A model generated the notes under the pieces. That model was not told where the DNA came from. It saw only the letters and a list, made by a program, of their open reading frames with translations, and did no database searches. Positions 26,108 through 31,720 of a stretch of DNA of 64,000 nucleotides are shown here, piece after piece (positions within the stretch are counted from its first letter, which is position 1; each line of letters begins with the position of its first letter). The stretch spans positions 124,001 to 188,000 of the forward strand of contig JAMDHS010000038.1 in assembly GCA_029717555.1 (NCBI GenBank), read 5' to 3'. The stretch is from Peribolospora baueri (taxonomy: Eukaryota; Basidiomycota; Peribolosporomycetes; Peribolosporales; Peribolosporaceae). The position numbers were made by a program, and so were the translations under genes.

Positions 26108-26236
26108 GGTCCGACCAGAAGGCGGAGTGTCCTGGCGTTGTGCCCTCTCGGATGCTTGCACTGCCGCTGTCAAGGTTGAGATACAAACTACCCGGCAAGT
26201 GTCAGTAGCCACGTCGCCGTCCTCCTCGTCTCAGGT

Positions 26237-26245
26237 CGATTGATG

Positions 26246-26309
<64 letters not shown>
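26237..26309. repeat. (ATTG)n tetranucleotide run, likely LINE 3' tail
   Basis: About 16 perfect ATTG units preceded by one or two degenerate ones. Read on the minus strand it is (CAAT)n and follows the LINE 3' end after a short untranslated stretch. Non-LTR elements often end in short tandem repeats rather than poly-A, so I read this as the element's tail. Confidence 0.6.
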
Positions 26310-26619
26310 AGTCAACTTAAAGTTTTTGATACAAGCCAGCCGGAGGCCTAGAGAAGACTAAAAACACGACTACCGTGGGAAAGGGAAGCTGCGGCGGATC
26401 GGGACGCGAAGGGGGAGTTCGGCATACGGAGAGAAAAGAGAGGGGACTACGCTGGCAATGTGGGGCCAAAGATAGTGGACAAGGGCGTGGTGGCAACATA
26501 ACTCATACAAACTGTGCGGAGACGCCAATGGTGAGGGGCGCAGGAGGACGCATCAGGGGAGGGATGCAGCAGGGCGGCGCAAGAGGGTTGTTGGCAGCCA
26601 GCGCTCAGGACGCCAGCGC

Positions 26620-27510
26620 TCAGGAGAGGCCGGGCCGACCAGAACTGCCCGGCACGGTGTCATCCGAGGAGGGTCGGCTAGCGCCTGAACCCTCGGCAAA
26701 GGACAAGGGGAAGCGTCCAGTGTCTCGAAGGAAGTGCACTGTGAGCGGGAGTGCCTTCGGGTGAAACAGGAGCGTGTGTAGGTCCGTGCTGGGAATACGG
26801 CGGGCGGATAGCTCGCTTTGGAGTCGACGTCGGTGACTCTGCCATCGGGGGCAGAACAGGAGGAAATGGGCGACCGTCTCGGGGCGCCGGGAAGAGGGGC
26901 ACTTATCGTCGTCGGCGGCCCGGACTCGAGAGAGATAGCTGCGGAGCGCGCAGTGGCCGGAGCGAAGTTGGACGATGAGCGCCGCCGCACCGCGCCCCAG
27001 GCATGAGAGAGCATCGAACGCGGCTTGGGGCGACACATCCCGGCGGACGTGGGCGTGCCACGCTCCCGCCATGCTCTCTCGCAGACCGTAGTTTGGCCCA
27101 GGGTCGTCGGCCCCATGCCGCCATTTCCGAACCATTTTAGCCGCCGACGGGGAGCGCGGGAGGGACTGGGAAGGCTGTCAACGTCCGGTCCCAGGGGGAG
27201 GAGCGGACGGCGAACTGGCAAGTGGCGGCAGCGTCGGCGATTTCGTTTTCAGGGACATCGGAGTGGCCGGGGCACCATCTCGCATGGGGGGGCGGCTAAT
27301 GCGCGTAGAACGGCCTGGTTGTCGATGTGTAGCCACACCTCGCGGGCTCGCGTGTCTCCTTCGGTCCCGTCCCAGCATTCGAGCACGATGTCCACGGCCA
27401 GAAGGACCCCTACGAGCTCCGCCTCATAGAGTGTGCGAACCGCAGCGGAGCTCAATGACGTACGATGCAGACCGTTGGGGCTACCGCCGCCGCTTCGACG
27501 ACCGACCATA
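26620..27510 (-). pseudogene. LINE ORF2 remnant: RNase H and C-terminal Cys/His region
   Basis: Minus-strand frames give TLYEAELVGVLLAVDIVL and HIDNQAVLRAL (RNase H), PGHSDVPENEIADAAA (RNase H His/Asp box) and then QLRSGHCALRSYLSRV followed by CPSSRRPETVAHFLLFCPRW, the degenerate zinc-binding end of many LINE ORF2 proteins (second Cys lost). The pieces lie in different frames, so it is a pseudogene. Confidence 0.8.
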
Positions 27511-28355
27511 TTTTGAGCGTTGGCTGACGACGCCGCATCCCAGGGCGGGAGGCGGGATGGTGGCGCTGTCGGTCGGGAAAGCCGGGTGGCGACGGGGTCG
27601 GAGTCCGTAGGCGGGCGGCGGAAAGAAGGTGCGCAGGAATAAGTCGGCTTGCGTGGGGGCCGAGGAGACTGACGGTGGCTCCGATGTCGAAGCCGAGGAG
27701 TCCCGGAGAGGGAGGACGCCGGTGCTGGAGGGTGGTTCGCGGGCGTACCGCGCCGCCGACCAAACGGTCGTACTGTCGAGTCCTTCCAAAAATTTCCGCC
27801 AGTGAAAACGCTTGGCCCTGAGAATGCCTGATTTCAAGCGCCGTCGCGCTCGTCGCAGTGATTCCTTGAGGTCGCCGAAGCCGGGAGAGCTGGGGTCGGC
27901 GCGTCGGGCTGCTCGCTCACAGCGCTTGACATCCCGGACCAGCGGGTTTAATACCTCTGGGTCCCACCACCGTTTAGCATAAGGGGAGGGTTAGCCCTAG
28001 GGACGTGGGCGTGCATGGCCAGCTGGAGGGCCACCGAGAACCGGGCTGCAGCATCGTCCACTTGGCGGGCGTACCCGGTATGCCTGGCCAGTCGCGTAAG
28101 TTGTCGCGCACTGACGCCACGACTTCCTCGAGATCAGCTGCCTTCCAGTTGAGCGGGCGGGGCAGTGTGGTGTAATCGGGGGGGGGGGTTGCAGGGCCGA
28201 GCCTGAAGGCGTACGAGCGCATCGACTTCTCATACCCTCCGCGAGTGCTCTTGTTCCGAGGGGCAGAGGTGCCAGCCGGGCGACTGCTCGCACACGCAGG
28301 TATCCTGTGCCCTACGCCTCGCTGCTGGCCATACGGAGGTGGGGCACATGGCAAC
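27511..28355 (-). pseudogene. LINE ORF2 remnant: endonuclease-RT linker
   Basis: The frames read LPRPLNWKAADLEEVVASVR, then about 130 codons further on AKRFHWRKFLEGLDSTTVW and LRTFFPPP, the layout seen between endonuclease and reverse transcriptase in LINE ORF2. It ends where the RT should begin. Frame changes interrupt it. Confidence 0.65.
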
Positions 28356-28399
28356 TAGCAATGACTGCCCAATCCGCGCCGCACGACGTCAGCAACTGG

Positions 28400-29220
28400 A
28401 AGACGACCCCGCCCTCTCCGACAGTCTCTACTGATGCTGCCTCCCTCCTCCACAACCTTGAGTCCGACCCCCCCTCCGGCTGACACCGACCGGGTCACAT
28501 GGCTGCGTGTAAAGCAATTTAACTGCAGACGCAGCGATAGCACCCTCCACTCCCTGTTGCACGATGCGGACACGACGATGCACCACATCCTATGCTTGCA
28601 GGAGCCCTACTTCATTCCCACCACTTTCCGCCTTCCCTTCTACCGCAACTGGGAGCCGGTTCTGCCTCCCTCACCCCCTGGGGCGACCACTGACCCGTCC
28701 ACCCGTCCTAGATCGGCTATGTTGCTCAATACCCATCTCCTCTCCCCCCGCGAGATCTCCGTCTTTCCGGTTACTTCAAGGGATGTCACGGCAGTCCAGC
28801 TCTCCCCTCCCGCCGGGGCACCTGCAACATGGCGCCCATTCACTCTCGTCAATGTATACAACCCCGCCCCGGCACGACTTCTGCGCTCGGCCCTCTGGCC
28901 GACCTCCTGACCCGCGTCAGCAACCTGGGGCGGCACCCCCTGCTCGTTGTTGGGGACTTCAACCTCCACCATCCGACGTGGAACCTCAGGGGGTACACGG
29001 TGGAAGAGGCCGATGCGGATCGACTCCTGGCGCTGGTCATGGCGCACGGACTTGAGCTAGCGTCGTCGACCCGCACCCCGACCTTCTTCCGAACCAACCC
29101 TCCGGCCGCCACTTGCATCGACCTCGGCTTCGCCTCTGGTCCTGCGCGGGACAGCCTAGGACGCGCGACCCTCGGCTCCTTCTCCCATGGGTCGGATCAC
29201 ATTCCAATTCGAGCGCAGCG
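28400..29220 (+). pseudogene. LINE apurinic-type endonuclease block, inverted
   Basis: On the plus strand, opposite to the rest of the element, the frames give VKQFNCRRSDSTLHSLL, HHILCLQEPYF, VNVYNPAP, then in another frame LLVVGDFNLHHPTWN, IDLGFASG and GSDHIPIRAQ. These are the EEP-fold endonuclease motifs (LQEP, GDFN-H-W, SDH). One frame change near 28870 interrupts it. The 3' boundary at about 29220 abuts antisense ORF1 sequence, marking an inversion breakpoint. Confidence 0.85.
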
Positions 29221-30254
29221 GGGGGCGTTCGCACAGTGAGCGGCCGTGTGGTCGAACCCACAGCAGCGGTAACACTGGCGGATTGTTGGGCGGGACTTCT
29301 GGGTGGGGTGGATCTCATGGCCGATGGCGACGTGCTGCTGGATGGCCCGGTTGGCAGCGTCTTTGCTGCCCAGAAGCACGACCAGGCTAGATCTAGGCCT
29401 GGGGTTGGGGCCGGTGGCATGGGAGGGGATGGCCCACCGGGCACGTACAACGTCCTCCCGAAGGAGCCCGTTGTCCGCGGCCAAATCGCCCAGGCACTCG
29501 GGGTCATGGGGGGCGAACGAGGTCGGAACGCCGTGCACGAAGACCGGGTACAGACGGGCCTTGAAGCGCCCATTTAAATGTCGAGAAACTTCTCCAATAC
29601 TGTTAAATGTACGATTTAATTCAGAAACCCCTCGTGCAAAGCGCCCACCCAAGAGCGGTCGGACGAGAGCCGTGTCACTGCCGCGTCCGACAAGAGGTGG
29701 ACAACGATCTCCTTGGACCTGGGTCGAACGGAGGCGGCCTTGATCCTGACGTCCTCCCCTGCCGATTCCTTCACCGCCGCACGAATACGGTTGCAAAGGA
29801 TCGTCGGCGGGAGGTCAACGAGAACAGGGGCATGGGGTTGGCGTTGAGCGAGAGTCACCGAGAACTTGGTGACCGGGGACCGGGGTTCCGAGGTCGCTGT
29901 GGCGGTCGAACGCGACGTTGTCTTGCGTTGGACGACGCGCCAGGGAGAAGGGTGACTTTGCTGGGAGGAGGGCAGCCCAGAGGATTCAGCGCCGCCGGCC
30001 AGGTCGGCCGGCACGCCCTGGGTCCTGGCGTCCATGTTGAACACGGTGTCCCGGACCTGGCACACGCGTTCATCCAGCTTGTCCAGCTTGGTCTGGATGT
30101 CGGCGGTCGGATCCGCCTTCGCCTTGTGGGCAGCGTCGACTTTGGCCATCTGGCCGGCAAGGAGGAGGTCTTGAAAGACCGTCGCATCGACGGTGATCTT
30201 CTTGGCTTTGAGTTTTCTGGCACGATCCGCCTGTGGTGTCGCGATGTTCTTCAT
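29197..30254 (-). pseudogene. LINE ORF1 (gag-like, zinc knuckle)
   Basis: The minus strand opens with ATG at 30254 (MKNIATPQADRARKLKAKKI), followed by a coiled region (IQTKLDKLDERVCQVRDTVF), a nucleic-acid-binding block (TILCNRIRAAVKES, KEIVVHLLSDAAV) and a terminal zinc knuckle (QCYRCCGFDHTAAHC). A frame change near 29610 separates the two halves. ORF1 proteins coat LINE RNA. Confidence 0.75.
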
Positions 30255-30262
30255 GGAGAGGA

Positions 30263-31720
30263 CAGATCTTGATCAACCACGGCGGCGGGGAAGCGTCAAA
30301 CTTCTTCGCATCAAAGCAGAAGAAGCACTTGTAGGGCTGTAGGCGCTCCATGAAGCGCCGTGCACCACCGTGCCAACACGACTGCTCGATGGCCACAGGG
30401 TGGCCCTCAGCCAGCGTCATGTTCGTCAGAATATTCTCCGTGACGCCATTCAGCTTTAGGTCCCTGTGGCTGGTCATCATGATCAGCCTTCCGGCCTCGG
30501 GCTTGTCACCCTGGGCCCTGATCTTGGCCTGCGTGGTGGCCTTCCCACGTCCTCCCATCCTAACCAGGTGCGGTTCGACGCGCTCGCCACGTATCAGTCG
30601 TTGTCAGGCTTGCTCCGCGTCATACTGGGCAACAACGTCCGCTTCTCCGCGTGTGGAGAACCCGCGCCGCCAGTACTCCACCCCTGCAAAGCGGTCGCCG
30701 TAGAAGCGAACGTCCTGCAGGTCGGCGATCGTTGGGAAGTCAACGCCGTCCGTAAAGGAGCACAGGCCAGCAACATTGTGCGGCTTGAGTAATGAGCTCA
30801 TAGAACTCATGGCGCATTGGGATGACAGCGCGGTTGAACTGATCAAGATGATTCAGCTCAACTAGGGAGTTTGGCTTGACAAAGATATGGTCTGCCGAGA
30901 AGGTGCCCTCAAAGTACGAAGAGTCTGAGTGATTTGCTTCTGTTTCGGAATCGGAAGAGAGGAAGGAAAGGCGGTCGCCCTCTTCTTCTGACGATGCGGT
31001 TCGAGACGGCCGTGGACGGCTAGCGGGTGCGACAGACCGAACGGCCGGTCGTGGGCGGTGCCGGCAAAAGACGGCTGTGCTTCTTCTGGTCTGAGGCACC
31101 TTCGGGGACGAGGGAGGCAGACTCGAACCATCCCCCCGTGCTCGTCCAAGCTGCGTTGGACGTATTAAACGTCGAAGGAACCCGACTCCAACCTCAACCT
31201 AAACCGTGCTTCAGATCCTCCGTCCCCTCTCTTGTCGTCGTGGGCGTCCAGGCTGAATCCCGGAAAGGGCGAGATCGCGTAGTACGCTTTGAAGACCTCG
31301 CACGCCTCCGCGATAAGCAATGTCTTCGACATCCCACGGAGGCACGCCTGCCGACCCATGAACTCCATCCGGTGGAAGCGTGCGTAGAAAGCGGCTTCTT
31401 CAGCCACACTGCGTGCAGTGGCTCCCACACGGCGCTGTCCCCTGCGGCGGCGCGTCGACACCGAACCCTCCGGCATCTCCTCCTCTGGCGTAATGGTGTT
31501 GTCGAACGCATGATCCGAGCTGTAGTCGGAAAAGTGGTGTAGGCGGACATCGTGGAGGTCGCCAGCTCGGACCAGGTGGTTGCGTTCAGCCAGGCTGTCG
31601 TTGGACAGGCGAAAGCCTTGCCCTTGTCTTGATCAGCATTCCTCCCCAAGTGCTTGCGAGTCGGCACTAGTTTTGCGGGGGAGAACCTTTTGGCTTGTTT
31701 CTTGCCTCGTCTCAGGCACA
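30263..31720 (-). pseudogene. Fossil RNA-virus polymerase-like sequence (partitivirus-like), broken
   Basis: Minus-strand reading frames contain a block whose order matches the front of a partitivirus-type RNA-dependent RNA polymerase palm: an arginine-led segment (GRLIMMTSH), a Gly-rich helix (HGGARRFMERL) and a motif-A-like box FDAKKFDASPPPWLIK. Further upstream frames on the same strand (YARFHRMEFMGRQACL, FYGDRFAGVEYW) may be the polymerase N-terminal part, but I cannot assign them firmly. The later palm motifs are absent; the sequence stops where the LINE begins. The fossil is broken in several places and so is not recent. It is flanked by MSP1 on the other side. The family call is by motif pattern only. 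Confidence 0.45.

Follow-up and report, generated by a model that had tools for sequence, protein, structure and literature searches.

The entry of RNA viruses that lack a reverse transcriptase into fungal chromosomes is mostly inferred, and the resulting fossils seldom bear a trace of the enzyme that made them. In Magnaporthe grisea, chimeric retrogenes (the MINE and tripartite elements) carry parts of a 5'-truncated long interspersed nuclear element (LINE) and duplications of 10-20 bp, and a template-jump mechanism was proposed for them; in one case three transcripts are fused, with a 14-bp duplication (PMC2104539; here and below, published systems are described from excerpts of the cited papers). 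In the Mortierellaceae, a clade of endogenous curvulavirus-like RNA-dependent RNA polymerases (RdRps) has a mean protein length of 646 aa (PMC12548735). Here we describe a locus in the basidiomycete Peribolospora baueri in which the N-terminal half of a curvulavirus-like RdRp gene is fused to the 5' side of a LINE. It lies in a stretch of 64,000 nucleotides (the window; contig C110, positions 124001-188000, of a 22.1-Mb assembly with 178 contigs), and it very probably arose by one target-primed insertion with a template jump from the LINE RNA to a viral RNA. Listings and excerpts of the open-licence PMC literature gave no example of a double-stranded RNA (dsRNA) virus joined to a LINE inside a single duplication.

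Positions 31704-26236 on the minus strand of the window form a single insertion, with ALG11 on one side and an Msp1-like ATPase gene on the other. From 5' to 3', it consists of the N-terminal half of the RdRp gene, a piece of a host gene inside this RdRp part, and then a rearranged LINE that ends in a (CAAT)n tail (Table 1). The viral pieces share the sense of the LINE open reading frame 1 (ORF1) and of the LINE 3' half. The insertion is bounded by two copies of CCTGAGACGAGG: the 5' copy abuts the viral block, and the 3' copy abuts the end of the (CAAT)n tail. A match of 12 bp was reached in only 1 of 3000 shuffles of both ends (141 and 161 nt), and in none of 5000 shuffles of the 30 nt from each edge. 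This bears on the alternative of two independent insertions, in which viral cDNA entered first and the LINE later at its edge, or the reverse. Endogenous curvulavirus-like RdRps of other fungi, for which the excerpted report names no LINE (PMC12548735), speak for such a history. However, the best word common to both sides is 5 nt for the LINE alone (30263/26235) and 4 nt for the viral block alone (31705/30262), each among the two commonest values in shuffles, against 12 nt around both, and the viral block exactly fills the space from the duplication to the LINE. We regard two insertions as very unlikely. The search for target-site duplications proposed in an earlier note on this DNA thus gave one 12-bp pair around the whole and none marking separate events, and 31704-26236 is likely to have been inserted as one unit.

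The virus and the LINE meet at 30263/30262 with no spacer, the viral block lying 5' of the LINE and in the sense of ORF1, just as the earlier note had described. The same note took an ATG at 30254 as the start of ORF1 and suggested a check of whether the usual 5' end of the element coincides with about 30260; in the comparison with other copies neither is the case. In the whole-genome searches, for which scores were obtained for the best candidates only, the match to a LINE copy on contig C96 begins exactly at 30262, with 84% and 93% identity over two stretches. The ORF1 of the C96 copy has about 40 more codons upstream than that of the window, so the codon at 30254 is internal. When 94 residues of the C96 protein were used as a query, the window matched only residues 39-93, and copies on C101 and C88 matched residues 12-58 and 32-93. 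A 5' untranslated region (UTR) of at least 79 nt, common to the C96 and C88 copies, precedes the ORF1 ATG. The window LINE therefore lacks ~200 nt of its front, and the viral sequence occupies the place of this missing front. The LINE bases just upstream of the break, as read from C96, are GAGTTGA. The 5' regions of C96 and C88, the only readable ones, are unrelated to the viral block: a small comparison of the block with these regions and the C101 locus gave only words of 12-16 nt, the longest of them with a mismatch, and a best E of 0.01.

The viral gene is broken and was searched as separate pieces. The minus-strand block contains a motif-A-like peptide, FDAKKFDASPPPWLIK. Piece 30603-30259 matched three full-length RdRps with E values of 1.3e-33 (55% identity), 2.6e-31 and 3.5e-28, at 50-55% identity throughout (90 candidates scored). 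All three contain PF00680, and the named one among them, Podosphaera virus A, is unclassified at NCBI. A profile built from these three RdRps recovered 65 RdRps at E<=1e-5 among the 7996 best candidates scored, all 65 with PF00680. They include Heterobasidion RNA virus 6 (HetRV6), Phlebiopsis gigantea curvulavirus 1 and Trichoderma harzianum bipartite mycovirus 1 (THBMV1), as well as proteins from the genomes of Mortierella, Linnemannia, Phycomyces and Apophysomyces. The Curvulaviridae, in the Durnavirales, include HetRV6, THBMV1 and Rhizoctonia cerealis orthocurvulavirus. At E<=0.01, segment A of the fossil (31632-31240) matched 17 of the 65 RdRps, with a best E of 5e-10, and the three pieces of segment C matched 32 (C1), 62 (C2) and all 65 (C3, 30603-30262). 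Three or all four of the viral pieces have a match in 39 relatives, and in each of these they are collinear with the protein. A tree of 66 rows and 112 columns placed C3 within the Curvulaviridae-like set with no supported sister, the bootstrap being not fully settled.

These matches indicate that the block derives from a real RNA-virus RdRp and did not arise by chance, and the strong matches answer the earlier note's call for a translated search against viral polymerases. The note had called the polymerase partitivirus-like. Judged by its relatives, the polymerase is curvulavirus-like (Curvulaviridae, Durnavirales) and not specifically that of a partitivirus: the named relatives are members of the Curvulaviridae and nearby viruses. 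No partitivirus is named among the 65 profile matches, which came from the 7996 best candidates scored and many of which are unnamed, and no partitivirus RdRp was compared directly.

The fossil covers residues 37 to 321 of 589 in one relative (P0002), of which residues 37-98 fall in segment A. About the first half of the viral open reading frame is present, and the viral part ends just past motif A, short of the catalytic GDD motif and inside the polymerase as was noted earlier. The fossil is also broken, as that note had said: segment C contains a single frameshift, near 30772, and a single stop in frame, at 30606-30604. The open frame of segment A starts at 31632 and is probably preceded by some viral 5' leader. 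The first ~240 nt of the segment have no similarity in any comparison made, and their position suggests that they are viral. RNA1 of HetRV6 has 2050 nt, or 1821 without its UTRs (PMC8473416), lengths compatible with, though no proof of, a position of 31704 close to the 5' end of the virus. The extent originally assigned to the virus-like part, 30263-31720, thus holds for the RdRp pieces and changes in two places: 31239-30893 is a host-gene copy, and the upstream edge is 31704, where the duplication begins.

A fossil piece reached only a sub-threshold match to Pfam RdRP_1, over 35 residues only (E 0.024; 13.9 bits, cut-off 23.9), and the PF00680 profile gave no match across the fungus's own genome, the fossil itself included; the profile is therefore too weak here. 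The motif-A piece had four matches among PDB sequences, none of them to a polymerase (best E 0.98), and a scan of viral contigs with the RdRp alignment gave 70 pattern matches and no confirmed one. A search of the genome with the protein P0016 recovered the fossil only, as two pieces, and neither a second copy of the viral sequence nor another part of an RdRp was found among the best candidates scored in the assembly.

Table 1. Features of the insertion and its target-site duplication, in 5' to 3' order on the minus strand (window coordinates).
Feature	Position	Strand	Evidence
Target-site duplication CCTGAGACGAGG, 5' copy	31705..31716	-	12/12 identical to 3' copy
Viral segment A: RdRp N-terminal part and probable viral 5' leader	31240..31704	-	RdRp matches
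Segment B: host-gene copy	30893..31239	-	96% identical to C168:22063-22416
Viral segment C: RdRp to just past motif A	30263..30892	-	Piecewise RdRp matches
LINE ORF1, 5'-truncated within the coding region	29211..30262	-	84% and 93% identity to C96 copy
Inverted LINE segment: ORF1 C-terminus and endonuclease domain	28207..29209	+	PF14529; C96 and C146 joins
LINE 3' half: linker, RNase H-like region (by eye), C-terminal region, 3' UTR	26310..28206	-	C88, C146 and C178 matches
(CAAT)n 3' tail of LINE	26236..26309	-	Sequence
Target-site duplication CCTGAGACGAGG, 3' copy	26224..26235	-	Sequence; shuffle tests

Combining these data suggests how the insertion may have been made. A LINE endonuclease would have nicked the CCTGAGACGAGG site between ALG11 and the Msp1-like gene, and the reverse transcriptase (RT) would have begun to copy the LINE RNA from its (CAAT)n end. 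Inside ORF1, ~200 nt short of the LINE 5' end, the RT probably switched to a viral RNA of plus sense, which it entered just past the RdRp motif A and copied toward the viral 5' end, as the anatomy of the joint suggests. Joining of the far end to the chromosome would then have left the 12-bp duplication at both edges. Later decay produced the frameshift and the stop in the viral part. The order and sense of the parts, the missing spacer, the lost LINE front, the viral identity, the tail and the duplication are direct observations. Target-primed reverse transcription with a jump accounts in a single event for the duplication and the tail, for the truncated LINE, and for the order, the sense and the direct contact of the parts. 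The capture of viral RNA through a LINE template jump, as first proposed from the letters of this DNA, is thus supported, with the jump moved from the 5' end of the LINE RNA to a point ~200 nt short of it.

Several points weigh against this mechanism. The LINE copy has no detectable RT, which means that the enzyme must have been supplied by another copy or by an element that was damaged afterwards. The internal inversion of the LINE is not predicted by plain target-primed reverse transcription, and a further event is required for the host insert. This junction lacks the consensus GCC*A/U at which the Magnaporthe LINE jumps, and the main chimera family of Magnaporthe has a full-length 5' partner RNA, whereas only the 5' half of the viral open reading frame is found here (PMC2104539). 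Duplications were also sought for the C88 and C178 copies: none was found for C88, and C178 gave one 9-nt word ~4 kb from the tail, which was taken as chance, so there is no second case of a duplication of this size for this LINE family. Finally, the viral origin of the first ~240 nt of segment A, which match nothing, is a deduction.

The lack of an RT would be accounted for if the virus-LINE joint had formed at another place, through a previous template jump or through RNA recombination or ligation, and the chimeric transcript had later been retrotransposed into this site (5' transduction). Such a history predicts the same duplication, sense and junction, and a copy with a normal tail and no RT would follow if the source was already defective. 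However, it takes two events instead of one, and no other junction or viral copy appeared among the best candidates scored in the assembly. We consider it improbable, and a jump during the insertion itself remains our preferred explanation.

The host-gene piece inside the viral part, segment B, makes up 347 of the 1442 nt of the virus-like block, or about a quarter. By BLAST, 31239-30887 is 96% identical to C168:22063-22416. We set the end of the segment at 30893 because the last 6 nt of the match, to 30887, are rich in mismatches (two of the six) and the residues they encode resemble those of P0002. Defined in this way, the segment corresponds to 348 nt (116 codons) of the donor and ~347 nt in the fossil, with one 1-nt deletion and one stop. 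The donor stretch lies within an intact host open frame of 1243 codons on C168 (L010 2266-5997), which belongs to no Pfam family and for which the 7989 candidates scored gave no homologue at E<=0.001. Segment B has the same sense as the virus and is in frame with it at both ends, as seen in the open reading frames 31632-31165 and 31198-30740; by our own reckoning, sense and both phases would agree by chance about 1 time in 18.

Little or no viral coding sequence was lost at the insert. In pairwise matches, 22 of the 65 relatives matched both sides of segment B at E<=1. The number of codons between the flanking matches equals that of the fossil without the insert in 20 of these relatives and is two fewer in the other two. 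Some of the flanking matches are weak (up to E 0.49), and the difference is zero in all 11 relatives where both are at E<=0.01. If the BLAST end is taken as the edge, two viral codons are missing. The relatives' codon counts therefore place segment B between two viral codons, with a loss of none or at most two.

We compared the changes in segment B with those in the viral sequence next to it. The 354-nt alignment with the donor contains 13 substitutions (three synonymous, ten not) and one deletion, and the 348 nt of segment B proper contain 11 substitutions, of which three are synonymous and eight change an amino acid. For segment C, conservation was scored from 46 of the 65 relatives, the 19 left out being mainly fungal-genome proteins. 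Among the 23 columns without variation in the 46 relatives, segment C deviates once, as it does among the 42 columns conserved to at least 95%; leaving out one relative at a time gives 0-2%. Segment B is thus not visibly younger than the fossil, although the numbers are too small to decide.

There is about an even chance that segment B was acquired later than the integration, when a break within the fossil was repaired with filler DNA from the C168 gene, a history that is compatible with the template jump proposed for the virus. The nearly intact codon count (two codons lost if the BLAST edge is used) fits such a repair, and so do a shared GAC at the left edge (by eye) and the lack of a tail or duplication of its own (best word 4 nt); no unusual virus is required. 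On the other side stand the agreement of sense and both frames and the age of the segment, which on these small numbers looks no less than that of the fossil. It is doubtful, if conceivable, that the captured viral RNA was already a virus-host recombinant, that is, a curvulavirus whose polymerase gene held 116 host-mRNA codons, in frame and in the same sense, between two viral codons. A jump out to the host mRNA and back within the same reverse transcription is more doubtful still. The likelihoods given to these three origins are a matter of judgement and leave a remainder assigned to none of them.

The remainder of the LINE is rearranged. The endonuclease domain, of the APE type (PF14529, E 1.1e-13), is on the plus strand. 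The segment 28207-29209 is inverted, because the C96 copy joins 29209 to 28217 and the C146 copy, by protein similarity, joins the endonuclease to the linker. The inversion is clean and internal, ~1 kb in length, and each of its two joints shows the short minus-strand word GCGCTCG (by eye). Twin priming inverts the 5' end of a LINE and not an inner segment. The C96 copy (L011 5462-6684) is a fold-back, in which a piece of ORF1 is followed directly by ORF1 in the opposite sense, and its breakpoint coincides with one end of the window inversion, at LINE position 29209-29211. Repair of a double-strand break in which cDNA pieces from the virus, the host gene and the LINE were picked up would make such a patchwork of host insert, inverted endonuclease and, in the C96 copy, fold-back. 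This origin is extremely unlikely for the locus as a whole, as it predicts neither the 12-bp duplication, nor the intact LINE tail at one edge, nor the sense that the virus shares with the outer parts of the LINE.

Other parts of the element were recognized piece by piece. ORF1 of the window ends in a zinc-knuckle-like region (by eye) and contains, at the point of a break in the open frame, 56 nt (29570-29625) that are not in the C96 copy. The linker matches the C88 and C146 copies, and 27168-26674 is 65% identical to the C178 copy over 165 aa. The RNase H-like region was recognized by eye and has no Pfam match. An RT domain was found at 31 RVT_1 places across the genome, none of them on this contig; RT fragments are clustered on both strands of C146, C106 and C174, as if LINE remains gather there. 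The (CAAT)n tail also stands behind LINE remains on C88 and C178, and the other four (CAAT)n loci (C92, C106, C129 and a second one on C178) have no convincing LINE match. In the C88 copy (L045), the 5' UTR, ORF1, a piece of the linker and the (CAAT)n tail are recognisable, with no endonuclease, RT or C-terminal part that matches the window; it is apparently a short, deleted form. The element may belong to the Tad clade, in keeping with its APE-type endonuclease.

Of the two genes that flank the insertion, ALG11 was identified by its ALG11_N domain (E 6e-14) and has its ATG near 26108 (by eye). The AAA ATPase gene, divergent to ALG11, has an AAA domain (E 1e-11) and is MSP1-like; its PDB matches include Msp1 chains, with VCP-type chains scoring higher.

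A LINE fused to a virus inside one duplication makes the likely agent, the direction and the jump point readable from the sequence. The fossil also testifies that this lineage was once infected by a curvulavirus-like virus. The host insert, being in frame, raises the question of its origin. If the virus was indeed a recombinant, the locus would record two successive RNA jumps, from a host mRNA to the virus and from the virus to the LINE, and would show host sequence inserted into the polymerase gene of a mycovirus with a dsRNA genome.

The mechanism proposed here is already known from fungal LINE chimeras. As in the MINE elements of Magnaporthe, one insertion joins a copy of another RNA directly to the front of a fungal LINE that is truncated at its 5' end, and the 12-bp duplication fits the 10-20 bp of those chimeras (PMC2104539). 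The single duplication, the 5'-truncated LINE with its own tail and the same-sense 5' partner are all features of this type. The locus differs from MINE in that the partner is an RNA virus, copied from the middle toward its 5' end, and a single copy was found; there is a host piece within the viral part, and the GCC*A/U switch site, a motif from another LINE, is missing. On the viral side, the RdRps of the Mortierellaceae and of exogenous Curvulaviridae such as HetRV6 belong to the same RdRp family as the fossil. The excerpted report on the Mortierellaceae names no integration route (PMC12548735), whereas the fossil described here, a truncated pseudogene, shows the route by which it is likely to have entered. 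Copies of viral mRNA in mammals likewise point to uptake of viral RNA by LINE enzymes and have duplications at their edges (PMC2987831); they are reported with 3' poly-A tails, like mRNA pseudogenes, whereas the viral copy at this locus is joined to the sequence and tail of the LINE itself. RNA-virus genes have also been found near non-LTR elements, as in partitivirus coat-protein-like genes flanked by LTR (long terminal repeat) and non-LTR retrotransposons (PMC12027680), and LINEs were proposed as the agents for dinoRNAV elements that lie near them in dinoflagellates (PMC10235124). The evidence in these two cases is proximity (95 bp to 17 kb in the dinoflagellates), unlike the junction of virus and LINE within one duplication at this locus.

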